Assembly (NCBI GenBank): GCA_018064935.1
Contig: JAGHUF010000011.1
Location: 1-64,000, forward strand
Length of the DNA stretch: 64,000 bases
Origin: Candidatus Merdinaster equi
Lineage (GTDB): Bacteria; Bacillota; Clostridia; Lachnospirales; Lachnospiraceae
Reading direction: 5' to 3'
A program made the position numbers and the translations under genes. A model generated the notes under the pieces. The model saw only the letters and a program-made list of their open reading frames with translations, was not told the origin of the DNA and made no database searches. Position 1 is the first letter of the stretch. The number at the start of each line of letters is the position of its first letter. Below are positions 3,166 through 38,058 of the stretch, piece after piece.

Positions 3166-3302
3166 AATCTGTTTTGATGTAGTGTTTGGGGTGAAGGATA
3201 AGATAAAAAGCGTGGAAATTATATTTGACAGAATAACCAAATAGTCATACACTAACGCTTGGTAAATAGTTGTCTGAAATTCTGGATAACTCATATATTA
3301 GA

Positions 3303-3477
3303 TTAAGGTGCCTTTGACTACATGTGTATATGTAGGGCCAAGGGGTAAAAGGGAAACAGGTGTGAATCCTGTACGATCTCGTCACTGTGTAGTGGAGTTT
3401 ACTATTAATATGTCACTGGAATGATTTCTGGGAAGACAGTAGTAAGCGATGAAGCGAAGCCAGGAAACCTGCCTTAA
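3303..3477 (+). ncRNA. Cobalamin (AdoCbl) riboswitch
   Basis: Class core: GGGAAACAGGTGTGAATCCTGTACGATCTCGTCACTG ... GAAGCGAAGCCAGGAAACCTGCC; candidate P1 TTAAGG (3303-3308)/CCTTAA (3472-3477). Confidence 0.92.
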
Positions 3478-3551
3478 GTCTAGGTGCACATGATTACGAG
3501 GACTTAATCGTACCGTTTGGAAAAGGGAGTAATACCTTTTATTTTTCGTGT

Positions 3552-3581
3552 GCTTATATTCATTGAATATAGGCTTTTTTT
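3552..3581 (+). terminator. Intrinsic terminator downstream of the cobalamin riboswitch (expression platform)
   Basis: GCTTATATTC-ATT-GAATATAGGC then TTTTTTT. Confidence 0.75.
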
Positions 3582-3634
3582 ATGTCTTTTTTGATAATAA
3601 GAAGCTTATAAATAAATATAAGAGGTGTAAAGTA

Positions 3635-4828
3635 ATGAAAAGAAAGATTTGTGCAACAATACTTGGCGTTTCATTAGTGATGTCATCACTTATTGGATGT
3701 GGAACATCAGGCAATGTTACAACAGAAACTACAACAGAGGCAGAAAAAACAGATGATGCCGATCAGGCAGCAGCTGATAAGGTTGCAGCGCTTATCGATG
3801 CTATTTATGTTCAGGAAAGAACAGCAGATACAGATGCGCAGTGTAAGGCGGCTAAGGATGCATGGGATGCATTAACAGATGCTCAGAAGGAGTTAGTGGA
3901 AGGTGAAGAAGCTGATCCGGATTATTTCGGACGTGATACAGGTGATGCTTCTTTAGATAATACATTGAATCAGGATGGAATTGGTGAAAATGAAATCCTT
4001 GTAGTAAGCTTTGGTACATCATTCAATGATAGCCGAGCAAAGGATATTGGTGGAATAGAGAAGGCTATTCAGGCAGCATATCCGGATTGGTCAGTAAGAA
4101 GAGCGTTTACGGCTCAGATTATTATCAATCATGTTCAGGCTAGAGAAAATGCGCCAATCGATAATATGGAGCAGGCTCTTGAACGTGCTGTGGCTAATGG
4201 TGTAAAGAAACTCGTTGTTCAGCCGACACATCTTATGCATGGTGCTGAGTATGACGAAATGAAGGAAATTCTTGACAATTATGCTGATAAGTTTGAATCA
4301 GTTACAGTTGCAGAACCGCTGCTTGGTATGGTAGGTGCATCCGGCGATGAAGTTAACGAAGATAAGAAGATTGTTTCAGAAGCAGTTACAGCAGAAGCTG
4401 TTAAGGATGCTGGCTATGATTCATTAGAAGCAGCTAAGGAAGATGGTGTTGCATTTGTATTTATGGGACATGGTACATCACATACAGCAAAGGTTTCTTA
4501 TACACAGGTTCAGAGTCAGATGGCTGCTCTTGGATATGACAATGTCTGGATCGGAACAGTAGAGGGTGAGCCAGAAGAAACGGCATGTGAAAATGTCATT
4601 GATGCAGTTGCAGAAGCAGGATACAAGAAAGTAATACTTCGTCCACTTATGGTTGTAGCTGGCGACCATGCAAACAACGATATGGCCGGAGATGATGATG
4701 ATTCATGGAAGAGTATGTTCATTGCTTCAGGTAAATTTGATTCAGTGGATACTCAGATTTCTGGTCTTGGACGTATCGAAAGACTGCAGGCTCTTTATGT
4801 TGAACATGTTGCTGAGGCTATTAAGTAA
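3635..4828 (+). CDS. cbiK: Sirohydrochlorin cobaltochelatase CbiK family, predicted lipoprotein
   Basis: Lipobox-type signal (MKRKICATILGVSLVMSSLIGCG); CbiK-like ILVVSFGTSFNDSRAKDIGGIEKAIQ, QPTHLMHGAEYDEM, FVFMGHGTSH. Start set to 3635; the 3548 start lies in the riboswitch terminator. Confidence 0.85.
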   Translation: MKRKICATILGVSLVMSSLIGCGTSGNVTTETTTEAEKTDDADQAAADKVAALIDAIYVQERTADTDAQCKAAKDAWDALTDAQKELVEGEEADPDYFGRDTGDASLDNTLNQDGIGENEILVVSFGTSFNDSRAKDIGGIEKAIQAAYPDWSVRRAFTAQIIINHVQARENAPIDNMEQALERAVANGVKKLVVQPTHLMHGAEYDEMKEILDNYADKFESVTVAEPLLGMVGASGDEVNEDKKIVSEAVTAEAVKDAGYDSLEAAKEDGVAFVFMGHGTSHTAKVSYTQVQSQMAALGYDNVWIGTVEGEPEETACENVIDAVAEAGYKKVILRPLMVVAGDHANNDMAGDDDDSWKSMFIASGKFDSVDTQISGLGRIERLQALYVEHVAEAIK

Positions 4829-31698: not shown

Positions 31699-31839
31699 AT
31701 CCCATGACCTTTCCATAACCTGCAGGCTTTGGGTCGCAGGTGGAAGTGGCAAGGTTCACCATTTCCAATTTCCAAAAAGATATTATACTCGCGTATGAAA
31801 AAAATGAAATAAAAGAAAAGATAAAATTTTTATAAATAC

Positions 31840-31871
31840 CTATTGACATAGTAGGAAAATAGGTGTAAATT
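31840..31871 (+). promoter_or_regulatory. Promoter (TTGACA-17-TAAATT) overlapping a palindrome, upstream of the sulfur amino acid operon
   Basis: TTGACA 31843-31848, TAAATT 31866-31871; CTATTGACATAGT at 31840-31852 spans the -35. Confidence 0.6.
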
Positions 31872-31902: not shown

Positions 31903-32022
31903 ATGAAGAATGTTTTACTAACTTCGAGTTCAAACATGTGTATGTGTATGTGTCGAATGCTATTCTCCCAGGCAAGTGAAATGACCGGGTGTATGGCACA
32001 TTTGTCATGCAGCCGAAAATAA
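31903..32022 (+). CDS. Putative 39-aa Met/Cys-rich leader peptide
   Basis: MKNVLLTSSSNMCMCMCRMLFSQASEMTGCMAHLSCSRK; AAAGGGG RBS at about 31888-31894; below the ORF-track cutoff; overlaps attenuator segment 1. Confidence 0.72.
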   Translation: MKNVLLTSSSNMCMCMCRMLFSQASEMTGCMAHLSCSRK

Positions 32023-32078
32023 TAAGAATTATTATTTGAAGTCATTGCCTGGGAGTTAACAACCCAGGCATTTTTATT
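31965..32078 (+). promoter_or_regulatory. Candidate ribosome-mediated transcription attenuator (antiterminator/terminator)
   Basis: CTCCCAGGCAA (31965-31975) is the exact reverse complement of TTGCCTGGGAG (32045-32055); the latter also forms TGCCTGGG-AGTTAACAA-CCCAGGCA (32046-32070) followed by TTTTTATT. Confidence 0.72.
32046..32078 (+). terminator. Intrinsic terminator of the leader
   Basis: 8-bp GC-rich stem (32046-32053/32063-32070), 9-nt loop, TTTTTATT. Confidence 0.8.
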
Positions 32079-32146: not shown

Positions 32147-33808
32147 ATGAAAAAGAAACTATTGACGAAAATATTAACTAGTGCTGTTGCACTGACTTTA
32201 GGCCTGACAACACTTGCTGGCTGCGGTGCACAGAATGGTGATACACAGACAGCTGATGCGAATAAAGTCTACAGAACACTTGATGAGATTAAAGAGAGCG
32301 GAAAGATAAACATCGGAGTATTCTCAGATAAGAATCCATTCGGTTATGTAGATGAGAATGGTGAATATCAGGGCTATGATGTTTATTTCGCAGATAGAAT
32401 CGGTAAGGACCTGGGCGTAGAAATCAATTATGTTTCTACCGAGGCAGCAAGCAGAGTTGAGTATCTTGAAACTGGTAAGGTTGATATAGTACTTGCAAAC
32501 TTCACAGTAACTGAGGAGAGAGCACAGAAAGTTGATTTTGCTCTTCCATACATGAATGTAGCACTTGGAGTTGTATCACATGAGGGTAATGTGGTTGAGA
32601 GCCTTGATCAGGTCGGTGCTGATGAGCAGGTAATCGTAATCTCTGGAACAACTGCTGAGACATATCTTGAGAAGAATTATCCAGACATCAAGCTTCAGAA
32701 GTTTGATACCTATGCTACAGCAAAGACTTCTTTTGAAAACGGAACCGGAGCTCATTGGGCAAATGATAATACTGAAGTTATCGCATATGCAATTGAGAAC
32801 CCAGGATATGTTGTAGGTATTCCTTCTCTCGGAAGCCAGGATACAATTGCACCTGCTGTTTCTAAGGGCAATGATACACTTCTTGCATGGCTTAATGATG
32901 AGATTAAGAGCCTTGGAAATGAGAATTTCTTCCATGCAGATTATGAGGCAACCCTCATCGGAACCTATGGCGCTGAATATGAAGATACACTTGTTGTAGA
33001 AGGTGGTGTGACAGCTTCTGGTAATGAGCAGACAACAACAGCAGCTGGCGATTTAAACATCGTACCTGGAAATGGTGAAAAGATTAAGATTGCAGCATCT
33101 CCAATCCCTCATGCTGAAATTCTTGCTAAGGCAGCAGAGATCCTTAAGGATTACGGATATGAGCTTGATGTTGTTGAGTTCGAAGATTATGTTCAGCCAA
33201 ACCTTGTTGTAGAATCAGGTGAATTTGATGCTAACTATGTAGAGCATGTACCATACTTAAACAGCTTCAATGCAGAGCAGGGAACACACCTTGTTGATGC
33301 AGGACAAATCCACTATGAGCCATTTGGTATCTATCCAGGAACAAAGAGTAGCTTAAGCGATATTGCAGATGGCGATACAATCGCAATTCCTAATGATACA
33401 ACTAATGAAGCAAGAGCATTGCTTCTTCTTCAGGACAATGGACTTATTAAACTTGCTGACGGAGCTGGACTAACAGCAACAGTAAATGAAATTGTTGAGA
33501 ACCCAAACAATATTAAATTCATCGAGCTTGAGGCAGCACAGGTTGCCAGAGTAGCAGACGAAGTATCTTATGTAGTATTGAATGGTAACTATGCTCTTGA
33601 GGCTGGTTTCTCTGTAGGAAAAGATTCAATTGCATATGAGGCAAGTGATTCAGTTGCAGCAACAACATATGTAAACATCATCGCTGTATATGAAGGAAAT
33701 GAGACCAGCGACAAGATCCAGGCACTGGTTGCAGTACTTAGATCTGATGCAATCAAGAATTTCATTACTGAGACATATGATGGTGCAGTTATCTTCTTCG
33801 AGAAGTAG
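32147..33808 (+). CDS. Fused dual substrate-binding lipoprotein: SBP_bac_3 (CjaA-like, cysteine-type) + NlpA/MetQ-type domain
   Basis: Lipobox (LTTLAGCGAQ); N-half INIGVFSDKNPFGYVDENGEYQGYDVYFADRI...IVLANFTVTEERAQKVDFALPYMNVALGVV; C-half IKIAASPIPHAEILAKAAEILKDYGYELDVVEFEDYVQPNLVVESGEFDANYVEHVPYLNSF (NlpA/MetQ). Confidence 0.9.
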   Translation: MKKKLLTKILTSAVALTLGLTTLAGCGAQNGDTQTADANKVYRTLDEIKESGKINIGVFSDKNPFGYVDENGEYQGYDVYFADRIGKDLGVEINYVSTEAASRVEYLETGKVDIVLANFTVTEERAQKVDFALPYMNVALGVVSHEGNVVESLDQVGADEQVIVISGTTAETYLEKNYPDIKLQKFDTYATAKTSFENGTGAHWANDNTEVIAYAIENPGYVVGIPSLGSQDTIAPAVSKGNDTLLAWLNDEIKSLGNENFFHADYEATLIGTYGAEYEDTLVVEGGVTASGNEQTTTAAGDLNIVPGNGEKIKIAASPIPHAEILAKAAEILKDYGYELDVVEFEDYVQPNLVVESGEFDANYVEHVPYLNSFNAEQGTHLVDAGQIHYEPFGIYPGTKSSLSDIADGDTIAIPNDTTNEARALLLLQDNGLIKLADGAGLTATVNEIVENPNNIKFIELEAAQVARVADEVSYVVLNGNYALEAGFSVGKDSIAYEASDSVAATTYVNIIAVYEGNETSDKIQALVAVLRSDAIKNFITETYDGAVIFFEK

Positions 33809-33876: not shown

Positions 33877-34890
33877 ATGAGTGAAATTGAAATCAGGAAT
33901 TTATCAAAAAAATTCCAAATTAAAGGCCAGCAGATAGTTGCTTTAAGCGAGATAAATTTGAATATAGAAAAAGGGGATATATTCGGAATAATAGGTATGT
34001 CCGGAGCAGGAAAAAGCACTCTTGTAAGATCAATCAATTTCCTCGAAAAACCAACTGAGGGAGAGATACTGATTGATGGAGTAAATCTGGCAGAGTTATC
34101 TGCGAGAGAACTCAGGAAAAAAAGAAGCGAGATTGGAATGATATTCCAGAGCTTTAACCTGCTAGAGCAGAAAAATGTGCTTGATAATATTTGCTTTCCT
34201 CTTGAGATAAATGGTATCAGGAAAAAGGAAGCGAGGAAAAAGGCGAAGGAATTATTAGCAGTCGTAAAGCTTGAAGATAAAGAGAAGGCATACCCGTCAC
34301 AGTTGTCTGGCGGACAGAAACAGAGAGTAGCCATAGCGAGAGCACTTGCAACTGATCCCAAAATACTATTGTGTGATGAGGCGACAAGCGCGCTGGATCC
34401 ACAGACAACAGAGGCAATACTTAATTTGCTCCGTGAGATAAATGAGAGACTCGGCATAACGATAGTGATTATTACACATCAGATGTCTGTTGTAACTGAT
34501 ATATGTAAGAAAGTTGCGATTATTGACAGCGGAAGACTGGTTGAGGAGGGTGATGTTGAGACTATATTCGAATCGCCAAGGTCAGATGCTGCAAAAGAGT
34601 TAATTTCAGGAAAAACTGTAGGAAGAAAGACCTATTCGGAGCTTGAGGCCGAGAGAAAAATACGAATTGTATATAGAGAGAATTCGGCGTATGAACCTAT
34701 TATCTCTAACCTGGTACTGAAATTTAATGCACCAGTTAATATTCTGAAGGCAGATACAAAAAATGTAAATGGAAGAGCCGTCGGTGAGATGATTCTGGGT
34801 TTGCCGGATGATAAAGAATTACAAAATGAGCTTATTGATTATCTGAAAGAGAAAAAACTGGTAGTTACGGAGGTTACAGAGGATGTTTGA
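33877..34890 (+). CDS. metN: Methionine-type ABC transporter ATPase with C-terminal NIL domain
   Basis: Walker A GMSGAGKST, LSGGQKQRVAIARAL, LLCDEATSALDPQTT; C-terminal RIVYRENSAYEPIISNLVLKFNAPVNILKADTKNVNGRAVGEMILGL resembles NIL. Confidence 0.92.
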   Translation: MSEIEIRNLSKKFQIKGQQIVALSEINLNIEKGDIFGIIGMSGAGKSTLVRSINFLEKPTEGEILIDGVNLAELSARELRKKRSEIGMIFQSFNLLEQKNVLDNICFPLEINGIRKKEARKKAKELLAVVKLEDKEKAYPSQLSGGQKQRVAIARALATDPKILLCDEATSALDPQTTEAILNLLREINERLGITIVIITHQMSVVTDICKKVAIIDSGRLVEEGDVETIFESPRSDAAKELISGKTVGRKTYSELEAERKIRIVYRENSAYEPIISNLVLKFNAPVNILKADTKNVNGRAVGEMILGLPDDKELQNELIDYLKEKKLVVTEVTEDV

Positions 34891-35545
34891 TGCAAAAGTA
34901 ATACAAATGCTGTTAGAAGGCGTGAGAGATACTCTGTACATGACATTGGTATCTACAATTATTGGATATGCTGTTGGTCTACCACTTGGTATTCTGCTAA
35001 ATGTTACAGGAGTGACCGGGCTTAGGCCGAATCGAATAGTATATAGAATAGTGGATGTTATATGTAATATAATCCGAAGCATTCCATTCATTATATTGCT
35101 TATTCTACTTATTCCATTCACAAGATTTGTTGTTGGACAGAGCTATGGATCTAATGGTGTAATTGTACCTCTGGTTGTATGTGCATCGGCATATATTGCC
35201 CGAGTGGTTGAGTCTTCGCTGAATGAAGTTGACCATGGAATAATTGAGGCGGCAAAGTCAATGGGAGCTAACAATATTCAGATTGTATTTAAGGTACTTC
35301 TGGTTGAAGCAAAGACATCACTTATCACTGGTTTTACTATCACCACCGGGTTGCTTCTCGGATATTCTGCTATGTCAGGAACTGTTGGTGGTGGCGGACT
35401 CGGAGATATTGCGGTCAGATATGGATATCATAGATGGCAGGCAGATATCATGATTACAACAGTAATTCTGCTAATCATTATTTTCCAGATAATTCAGTAT
35501 ATTGGAACAAAGATTGCTTCTTCGTTAGATCATAGAAAAAGATAG
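34883..35545 (+). CDS. metI: Methionine-type ABC transporter permease
   Basis: LLEGVRDTLYMTLVSTIIGYAVGLPLGILL; AKSMGANNIQIVFKVLLVEAKTSLITG; SAMSGTVGGGGLGDIAVRYGY. Confidence 0.94.
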   Translation: MFDAKVIQMLLEGVRDTLYMTLVSTIIGYAVGLPLGILLNVTGVTGLRPNRIVYRIVDVICNIIRSIPFIILLILLIPFTRFVVGQSYGSNGVIVPLVVCASAYIARVVESSLNEVDHGIIEAAKSMGANNIQIVFKVLLVEAKTSLITGFTITTGLLLGYSAMSGTVGGGGLGDIAVRYGYHRWQADIMITTVILLIIIFQIIQYIGTKIASSLDHRKR

Positions 35546-35557
35546 TAGGAACACATT

Positions 35558-36217
35558 ATGGATTTTGGAGTAATTGCCAATTATATGCCGCTATATTCTG
35601 AGGCATTTCTTCTGACAATAAAAATAGGGTGGATAGGAATTGCGATTTCGATTGTTATCGGAATTGTTGTGGCATTTGTGCTGCATTTCAAAATTCCTTT
35701 TTTGAATATAATCGCAAAGGGATATGTGGAATTATTCAGAAATACACCACTTCTGGTGCAGCTGTTTTTCATCTATTTTGGTTTGCCAAAGATTGGTATT
35801 GTTATATCGGCAGAGGTATGTGGAGCAGTTGGACTTGGACTTTTAGGTGGAAGCTACATGGCGGAAACAATTAGAAGCGGGCTGGATGCAATTCCGGTAT
35901 CGCAGGGAGAGAGCGCTAAGGCATTAGGACTTAAACCAGTACAGATTTTCACCAGAATAACGCTCCCACAGGCCTTTACGATTAGTGTCCCGGGAATAGT
36001 TGCCAATGTAATATTTCTGCTTAAGGAAACGAGCGTTTTTTCGGCGATAAGCCTAATGGATCTGATGTTCACGGCTAAGGATTTGATTGGACTGTATTAC
36101 AACACTACGGAATGCCTGGTGATGCTGGTAGCATTCTACATCGTGATGCTTCTTCCTGTTTCAATTGCTGGAAGCATAATCGAGAAAAAATACAGATATA
36201 AAATGTATGGAGCATAA
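35558..36217 (+). CDS. Polar amino acid ABC transporter permease 1 (His/Glu/Gln/Cys type)
   Basis: GYVELFRNTPLLVQLFFIYFGLPKIG; SQGESAKALGLKPVQIFTRITLPQAF. Confidence 0.92.
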   Translation: MDFGVIANYMPLYSEAFLLTIKIGWIGIAISIVIGIVVAFVLHFKIPFLNIIAKGYVELFRNTPLLVQLFFIYFGLPKIGIVISAEVCGAVGLGLLGGSYMAETIRSGLDAIPVSQGESAKALGLKPVQIFTRITLPQAFTISVPGIVANVIFLLKETSVFSAISLMDLMFTAKDLIGLYYNTTECLVMLVAFYIVMLLPVSIAGSIIEKKYRYKMYGA

Positions 36218-36219
36218 AT

Positions 36220-36888
36220 ATGGGATTTGAGGTTTTATTTAAGGGTAGTAATATGCTAAGGCTTCTGGAAGGGCTTGGAGTCTCACTTGGAATCAGCCTC
36301 ATTTCGGTAGTAATCAGCATCGTTCTCGGCGTGTTTGTAGGAATGCTGATGACTATGAAAAATAAGGTAATCAAGGCAATAACGAGAGTGTATCTGGAAA
36401 TTGTTAGAATTATGCCCCAGATGGTGCTGCTGTTTATCGTGTATTTTGGTGCGACAAAGGCAATGGGAATTAATCTCAGTGCAGAAGTGTCAGCGATTAT
36501 TGTTTTTTCCTTCTGGGGAGTTGGCGAGATGTCAGACCTGGTGAGAGGTGCGATGCAGAGTATACCTGTCATTCAGTACGAGAGCAGCTATGCGCTGGGA
36601 CTGAATAAATTTCAGACGTTTATACACGTTATCATTCCGCAGATAATCAGAAGGATGCTTCCCTTGTCAATCAACCTGATTACGCGAATGATAAAAACGA
36701 CAAGCCTTGTCATGATGATAGGAATTGTTGAGGTACTTAAGGTAGGGCAGCAGATAATAGAGGCTAACAGAAAGACTTCTCCAGATGCGGCATTTGGAGT
36801 ATTTGCAACAATTTTTCTGCTGTATTTCATTGCATGCTGGCCAATAAGCTGTCTGTCTAAGTATTTGGAAAAGAAATGGGGGAAATAG
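36220..36888 (+). CDS. Polar amino acid ABC transporter permease 2
   Basis: YLEIVRIMPQMVLLFIVYFGATK; IQYESSYALGLNKFQTFIHVIIPQIIRRMLP. Confidence 0.9.
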   Translation: MGFEVLFKGSNMLRLLEGLGVSLGISLISVVISIVLGVFVGMLMTMKNKVIKAITRVYLEIVRIMPQMVLLFIVYFGATKAMGINLSAEVSAIIVFSFWGVGEMSDLVRGAMQSIPVIQYESSYALGLNKFQTFIHVIIPQIIRRMLPLSINLITRMIKTTSLVMMIGIVEVLKVGQQIIEANRKTSPDAAFGVFATIFLLYFIACWPISCLSKYLEKKWGK

Positions 36889-36889
36889 T

Positions 36890-37588
36890 ATGGGTGAGAT
36901 ATTGAGAGTCAAAAATGTAAGTAAGAGTTTTGACAATCTGCAGGTGCTTGATGATATTGATTTGACTGTAAATAAAGGCGAGGTCGTAGTTGTAGTTGGA
37001 CCCTCTGGATGTGGAAAAAGTACACTTCTTCGTTGCATAAATGGACTCGAGGATATTCAGGATGGCACAATAGAATGTGATGGAGACATCGGAATGGTAT
37101 TTCAAAGCTATGATTTGTTTCCTCACAAAACGATCCTTCAGAATCTGACGCTTGCACCTATGGTAGTGCAAAAGAGAAAGAAAGATGAAGTGACAAAGGA
37201 AGCTTTGGAACTGCTTGATAGGGTAGGATTATTGTCTAAAAAGAATAATTATCCAAGGCAGCTCTCCGGTGGGCAGAAACAACGAGTTGCAATTGTGAGA
37301 GCTCTTATCATGCATCCGGAAGTTCTGCTGCTTGATGAGATAACAGCGGCACTTGACCCGGAGATGGTAAGAGAGGTGCTTGATGTTGTTCTGTCACTTG
37401 CAAAAGAAGGCAGAACCATGGTAATTGTCACTCACGAAATGGAGTTTGCAAGAGCAGTGGCTGATAGAGTGGTCTTGGTTGATGGAGGTAAAATTGTGGA
37501 AGAGGCTCCTCCGCAGGAGTTCTTTGAACATCCAAAGACTGACAGACTGAAAAGGTTTTTGCAGACCTTTATGTATGAAAAAGGATGA
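36890..37588 (+). CDS. Polar amino acid ABC transporter ATPase (GlnQ-like)
   Basis: GPSGCGKSTLLRCINGLE; LSGGQKQRVAIVRALIMHPEVLLLDEITAALDPEMV. Confidence 0.93.
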   Translation: MGEILRVKNVSKSFDNLQVLDDIDLTVNKGEVVVVVGPSGCGKSTLLRCINGLEDIQDGTIECDGDIGMVFQSYDLFPHKTILQNLTLAPMVVQKRKKDEVTKEALELLDRVGLLSKKNNYPRQLSGGQKQRVAIVRALIMHPEVLLLDEITAALDPEMVREVLDVVLSLAKEGRTMVIVTHEMEFARAVADRVVLVDGGKIVEEAPPQEFFEHPKTDRLKRFLQTFMYEKG

Positions 37589-37633: not shown

Positions 37634-37662
37634 TCATGTGATGTTGTTTGGAGGTGACAGAA

Positions 37663-38058
37663 GTGATTTCAACAAGAGGAAGATATGCGCTTAGAGTCAT
37701 GCTTGATCTGGCGAATAATCAGGATGATGGATATGTCCCAATGAAGGATGTTGCGCTCAGACAGGATCTGTCACTTAAGTATTTAGAACAGATTCTACCT
37801 TTACTAAAGCAGAATAAAATGGTGGTTGGAATACAGGGCAAAGGCGGCGGTTATCGCCTGACTAAGAAGCCCGAAGAATACAGGATTGGTGATATACTAA
37901 GAGTCACTGAGAAGGAGATGGCTCCGGTTAGCTGCCTTGCGGAAGGAGCACAGGAGTGTGCTCATCGCGCATCTTGTAAAACAATTGGATTCTGGGAAGG
38001 CCTGGATAAAGTTATATCTGAATATATTGATTCGAAGACTTTGGCAGATTTGCTGTAG
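37663..38058 (+). CDS. Rrf2-family transcriptional regulator with three cysteines
   Basis: ISTRGRYALRVMLDLANNQDDGYVPMKDVALRQDLSLKYLEQILPLLKQNKMVVGIQGKGGGYRL; C-X7-C-X5-C in SCLAEGAQECAHRASC. GTG start 37663 with TTGGAGGTG RBS. Confidence 0.9.
   Translation: MISTRGRYALRVMLDLANNQDDGYVPMKDVALRQDLSLKYLEQILPLLKQNKMVVGIQGKGGGYRLTKKPEEYRIGDILRVTEKEMAPVSCLAEGAQECAHRASCKTIGFWEGLDKVISEYIDSKTLADLL

Follow-up and report, generated by a model that had tools for sequence, protein, structure and literature searches.

Receptors of ABC importers are mostly regarded as one, or several, per translocator. The L-cysteine receptors Ngo2014 (2yjp) and 1xt8 of C. jejuni, which belong to the SBP_bac_3 family, are single-domain proteins, and the MetQ/NlpA lipoproteins (among them 4ib2, TpN32, NmMetQ and E. 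coli MetQ) are associated with the MetNI translocator. Two tandem receptor domains on a flexible linker are found in GlnPQ (SBD1-SBD2, 6h30); both belong to the same family, form one protein with the permease and deliver to a single translocator. The ribosome-mediated attenuators of trp and his consist of a short ORF with regulatory codons and an antiterminator that overlaps an intrinsic terminator. In the Firmicutes such control is usually the business of T-boxes or riboswitches. Cysteine leaders are known in the Actinobacteria (PMC1262725) and a cysS leader in the Rhodobacterales (PMC8632094); the Mycobacterium Cys leaders are without conserved terminators.

The locus described here lies in a window of 64,000 nucleotides (the whole stretch of DNA that was analysed) and shares features with each of these systems. 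In the open-access literature searched (most subscription papers lie outside it) no SBP_bac_3 + Lipoprotein_9 fusion and no Met/Cys leader is described; tandem receptors such as GlnPQ and Cys leaders are already known, and the fusion and the Met/Cys leader are new versions of them. The genes of the operon are as follows.

32147..33808, + strand: fused two-domain lipoprotein receptor, 553 aa (Pfam, structure-sequence matches, conservation, AlphaFold2)
33877..34890, + strand: MetN-type ATPase with C-terminal NIL domain (PF00005 and PF09383, the latter above cut-off; best model TIGR02314 ABC_MetN, 348.8 bits against a cut-off of 499.7)
34883..35545, + strand: MetI-type permease (NF008049 MetI, 217.5 bits, above the cut-off of 212)
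35558..36217, + strand: polar amino-acid permease A (PF00528, HEQRo_perm_3TM)
36220..36888, + strand: polar amino-acid permease B (PF00528, HEQRo_perm_3TM)
36890..37588, + strand: amino-acid ABC ATPase (L-cystine TcyN is the top model, with 274 bits against a cut-off of 406)
37648..38058, + strand: Rrf2-family regulator, CymR/IscR-like (60 bp past the ATPase gene; PF02082, E 7.9e-34; matches to the IscR and CymR models fall short of the cut-offs)

The earlier note, made from the sequence alone, had read the first gene as one 553-aa ORF with one lipobox that joins an SBP_bac_3 receptor to a NlpA/MetQ-like one, and this is confirmed. The ORF runs unbroken from the ATG at 32147 to the stop ending at 33808, and its signal peptide and lipobox (TLAGC, Cys26) are present in a single copy. 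A Pfam profile search finds two families rather than one in the same chain, each above its gathering score: PF00497 (SBP_bac_3) at residues 54-258 (E 6e-28, 97.7 bits against a gathering score of 26.4) and PF03180 (Lipoprotein_9) at residues 313-549 (E 1.3e-77, 260.6 bits against 27). The AlphaFold2 model, built from 37 fused homologues that align cleanly across N half, linker and C half, has a mean pLDDT of 73.6 and two globular halves, with a low-confidence or disordered linker between them at about residues 284-309. Foldseek matches the C half to MetQ structures with a TMt of about 0.9, and the N half, which is modelled less well, to 2yjp and 1xt8 with a TMt of about 0.53. Both halves thus match type II periplasmic-binding-protein structures, so the earlier statement that the two have different folds exaggerates their difference; that they belong to different Pfam families stands.

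The N half aligns with the L-cysteine receptors over its whole length and keeps their ligand-residue motifs, but the chain then continues into a MetQ domain. Likewise, the C half is a full-length match to the MetQ/NlpA lipoproteins and a NIL-bearing MetN and a MetI gene adjoin it, but unlike those lipoproteins it lacks a separate signal peptide and lipobox, being attached to the end of the cysteine receptor. As the lipid anchor sits at one end of the chain, the MetQ half is about 285 residues away from the membrane; in Neisseria MetQ the lipidated form is required for full activity (PMC8416018), a point that weighs against the two-headed reading given below. In contrast to GlnPQ, the fused receptor has two Pfam families and a lipid anchor, its permeases are encoded by separate genes, and two translocators are present in the operon.

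We consider it highly probable that this two-headed receptor supplies separate cysteine and methionine importers, and that it is induced by a shortage of charged tRNA-Cys and/or tRNA-Met. The identity of the two ligands is suggested by the nearest relatives of each half. Those of the N half among solved structures are the L-cysteine receptors 2yjp of N. gonorrhoeae (221 bits) and 1xt8 of C. jejuni (212 bits), and the cystine receptor 2yln scores only 50 bits, which makes cysteine a likelier ligand than cystine. Residues that contact cysteine docked in FliY (Thr109, Arg114, Thr158 and Asp192; PMC7170509) map to T120, R125, T169 and D207, all of which are invariant in the 37 fused homologues. 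The C half is nearest to 4ib2, a Ruminococcus gnavus lipoprotein (375 bits), and next to MetQ/TpN32 structures. NmMetQ contacts methionine through R156, N213, N238, Y81, F98, H100 and Y103 (PMC6739813); six of these seven are kept, as R423, N481, N510, Y348, H367 and Y370, and all six are invariant in the 37 fused proteins. Published contacts were placed on the fused receptor by motif and spacing, not by superposition, and the residues so placed are consistent with both heads being functional. The C half misses the curated NCBIfam MetQ cut-offs (TIGR00363, 158 bits against 229; NF008285, 162 against 374), and the domain is therefore classed here as Lipoprotein_9/MetQ-like and not as MetQ in the NCBIfam sense.

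The alternative that survives best, unlikely as it is, concerns these ligands: the N head might take cystine or another amino acid, and the C head D-methionine, methionine sulfoxide or a methionine-containing dipeptide. MetQ proteins are able to bind methionine analogues (PMC8416018), and the counterpart of F98, a thioether contact in NmMetQ, is V365 in this copy (F, M, V or I at this position among the 37 fused proteins). However, the cystine receptor is a far more distant match to the N head than the cysteine receptors are, the contacts to the amino and carboxyl groups are invariant, and the codon run of the leader peptide (below) is made of Met and Cys codons. The candidate Met/Cys attenuator, which the earlier note does not mention for this gene, indicates independently of the receptor that the ligands are sulfur amino acids. 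The families of the two halves, their nearest structures, the presence of both translocators and the leader together lend strong inferential support to the bifunctional cyst(e)ine and methionine receptor that the earlier note proposed.

Two importers, putatively one for cysteine and one for methionine, are also what the operon encodes. MetN, MetI, two permeases and an ATPase lie downstream of the receptor gene, so that one receptor polypeptide accompanies two complete translocators. The second of these, the PAAT set, has the domains of two HEQRo permeases and a TcyN-like ATPase, and its substrate-specific models fall below cut-off. No MetN and no MetQ domain was found in the source genome (a 75% complete assembly) other than those of the fused operon. 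Of 80 fused loci three end before the next gene, and in 66 of the remaining 77 the next gene is MetN; the other 11 run straight into the PAAT genes without MetNI. These 11 loci allow a second reading, to which we give slightly less weight than to that of other ligands, namely that both heads serve one translocator as in GlnPQ, whose SBD1-SBD2 tandem (6h30) is the closest architectural parallel (PMC8025302); the MetQ head would then pass methionine to the PAAT permeases or merely concentrate ligand. One genome with such an operon, L022, whose completeness is not known, would fit this, since no MetN or MetI was found in it. Against it, MetNI is part of the operon at those 66 loci, and most genomes checked that have no MetNI in the fused operon have it elsewhere. 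In L043 a different contig carries the MetNI pair, and no MetQ domain besides the fused one was found; most of the others have a separate MetQ and MetN.

The one-translocator reading is also opposed by a decayed copy of the operon in G556 (L160, G556:C27; contig ~30642-33500). Here the Cys domain has been deleted inside the gene, and the signal peptide, a DTLVVEGG scar, the linker and the MetQ domain remain; the permease B gene has a frameshift and a cut that reaches into the ATPase gene, so the N terminus of the ATPase is broken too, while the MetQ domain is intact and the leader (MCMCMC) is retained. Because loss of the Cys head is here accompanied by decay of the PAAT genes, we take their joint decay as a natural pointer to a partnership between them. 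We note that in thirteen fused loci (L066-L069, L071, L073, L075, L076, L079, L080, L028, L048 and L054) the match of the neighbouring MetN stops before the NIL domain, and methionine feedback inhibition may therefore be lost there.

Full-length or nearly full-length fusions are present on at least 80 independent contigs, at 68–86% identity. In a one-per-genus sample of the Lachnospiraceae, the full-length fusion occurs in about 15 of 299 genera; in many other genera of the family the two halves have counterparts in separate genes, with identities that reach 77% for the N half and 75% for the C half. An order-wide sample gave no full-length fusion beyond the Lachnospiraceae, and the records of the named fused loci give Lachnospiraceae or broader or related Clostridia/Clostridium labels. 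Hosts of the fusion include gut and rumen bacteria. This survey, which the earlier note had called for, also dismisses an assembly artefact: the source assembly is incomplete (75% complete, 113 contigs), but the independent copies in about 15 genera, with linker position and operon order conserved, already refute it.

An intermediate state is seen in G454 (L159), where the Cys operon is followed in the same direction by MetQ-MetN-MetI, unfused. Single-half derivatives occur as well: in addition to the MetQ-only gene of G556, in G423 (L161:2445-3344) only the Cys half is present, followed by a long acidic, Ala/Ser-rich tail that resembles the fusion linker; this form possibly arose by loss of the MetQ half. 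Such derivatives would be expected if one half of the fused protein were an inactive passenger and a single amino acid were imported. We regard this as quite improbable, as neither half varies at its ligand residues among the 37 fused homologues and both translocators are retained in most operons. The trees of the N and C halves both require several changes of state. In the C-half tree, a single clade of all fused rows is rejected (p-AU 0.004), and when the G556 remnant is added it is no longer rejected (p 0.055); the history of the fusion may be one gain with losses, or several gains.

The receptor gene with its two importers is preceded by a leader region with the following features.

31838..31855, + strand: candidate operator/promoter ACCTATTGACATAGTAGG, an imperfect inverted repeat over the -35 TTGACA (from 31843), with a -10 TAAATT that ends at 31871 (promoter scan)
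31903..32022, + strand: leader peptide ORF MKNVLLTSSSNMCMCMCRMLFSQASEMTGCMAHLSCSRK, 39 aa, with a Met/Cys codon run (covariance-model match, 137.8 bits)
31965..31974, + strand: RNA segment A, antiterminator 5' arm CTCCCAGGCA, in leader codons F-S-Q-A (pairs with C in 28 aligned loci)
32046..32055, + strand: RNA segment C TGCCTGGGAG, shared arm (pairs with A in the antiterminator or with D in the terminator)
32063..32078, + strand: RNA segment D CCCAGGCA and U tract TTTTTATT, intrinsic terminator 3' arm (C:D stem)

The leader resembles the trp and his attenuators in its short ORF with putative regulatory codons and in an antiterminator that overlaps an intrinsic terminator. It differs from the known ones in that Met and Cys codons are mixed, that it occurs in a Firmicutes family, and that the genes behind it are a transport operon or other sulfur genes. 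The Met/Cys run, MCMCMC, occupies leader codons 12-17 (31936-31953). A leader of the same type precedes at least 51 fused-receptor loci, and in some fused loci with full upstream sequence no such leader was found. Over the eight codons that lead up to a conserved Arg, leaders of the fused group average 2.4 Met and 3.8 Cys; in a second fused group they have mainly Cys codons. In the 28 aligned loci the A:C helix is paired in 98.2% of cells and has double changes in five of its ten pairs; none of 500 shuffles gave covariation as high, and it is far above that of slid controls. RNAalifold recovered A:C unprompted, the C:D stem is 88% paired in the same loci, and folding of the 257-nt leader region is much more stable than that of shuffled sequences (z -7.5). 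A search of the upstream region against Rfam 15 gave no match at the gathering score and, at a relaxed threshold, sub-threshold and unrelated matches only; a T-box or SAM riboswitch upstream of the fused receptor was ruled out by this lack of an Rfam match.

The antiterminator and terminator hairpins exclude each other, and modelling of the states of the leader predicts antitermination with the ribosome stalled in the Met/Cys run and termination once it has arrived at the stop codon. With a ribosome footprint imposed at codons 13-16 the probability of A:C is at least 0.99, and at codon 17 it is 0.65; with the footprint at the end of the ORF, C:D exceeds 0.99. Intermediate positions gave mixed outcomes, and so kinetics will matter.

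From these features we infer the following course of events. At low levels of charged tRNA-Cys or tRNA-Met the ribosome would stall in the Met-Cys-Met-Cys-Met-Cys run and leave segment A free; A:C would then pair, the terminator would be blocked and the operon read. When both charged tRNAs are plentiful, the ribosome would reach the stop codon with A covered or separated from C, and as A is unavailable the C:D terminator would form and transcription end. The receptor so produced would be anchored by the single lipid at Cys26; its N-terminal venus-flytrap domain, which most likely binds L-cysteine, would deliver to the PAAT translocator (permeases A and B and the TcyN-like ATPase); the MetQ domain at the C terminus, held by the flexible linker, would bind methionine and deliver it to MetNI. 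With both receptors, both pumps and an apparent Met/Cys switch together, the import of cysteine and methionine looks like a single unit. One anchored polypeptide would thus apparently serve two unrelated importers, and the system opens to experiment the way in which a tethered receptor docks with two partners, and the question whether capturing one ligand affects delivery of the other.

A further layer of control is probably added by an Rrf2-type regulator at the conserved operator over the -35. The ACCTATTGACATAGTAGG repeat, with four or fewer mismatches, is found upstream of 47 of 56 leaders, with none expected in shuffles, and Rrf2 genes adjoin several fused-receptor operons; an Rrf2/CymR-type protein probably binds the candidate operator at 31838-31855. 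A scan of the source genome for further operator sites gave matches at three mismatches that were no commoner than in the control.

The leader element is not confined to fused receptors, and most of its sites precede sulfur genes. Its covariance model finds 51 sites in 39 of 299 Lachnospiraceae genera, and it also matches in some other families of the order. The downstream gene was read for 50 of the 51 sites. Half of these (25) precede Cys/Met PLP enzymes, which form a single-linkage cluster whose members, among those checked, are O-acetylhomoserine sulfhydrylase (metY-type) and cystathionine lyase/synthase. The fused receptor follows at seven, a separate Cys receptor at two and another cystine-type receptor at one. 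Three sites lie before MetN or MetQ genes, one each before cysK, metK and a sulfopropanediol dehydratase gene, three before a GST-like protein family and six before other genes. In a few cases the codons go with the operon, as in G153, where a Met-rich leader precedes MetN-MetI-MetQ genes, and L085, where a Cys-rich leader precedes a separate Cys operon.

Across the loci of this family survey (L103-L152) the element looks like an undescribed sulfur-regulon element. It is probable, if less so than the two-importer reading of the operon itself, that an undescribed class of leader-peptide attenuator which reads Met and Cys codons jointly governs a sulfur regulon in the Lachnospiraceae, by which we mean transport, metY-type enzymes, cysK, metK and sulfonate breakdown; where it precedes a fused receptor, the sensing of the two sulfur amino acids would be merged, and so would their capture. 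The element is in any case a concrete and widespread candidate for a Met/Cys attenuator in the Firmicutes, and it offers a way to study how gut and rumen bacteria sense sulfur amino acids. The sulfopropanediol dehydratase gene, L140:599-3061, encodes a (2S)-3-sulfopropanediol dehydratase (NF048011, 1398 bits) and has the same type of leader just upstream, which suggests that sulfonate breakdown is under the same control there.

Elsewhere in the window, a cobalamin riboswitch at 3290-3490 (103.9 bits) precedes a gene for a lipoprotein at 3548-4828. By eye this lipoprotein resembles CbiK-type cobaltochelatase; if it is of the CbiK type, it would be an exported chelatase, which would be unusual.
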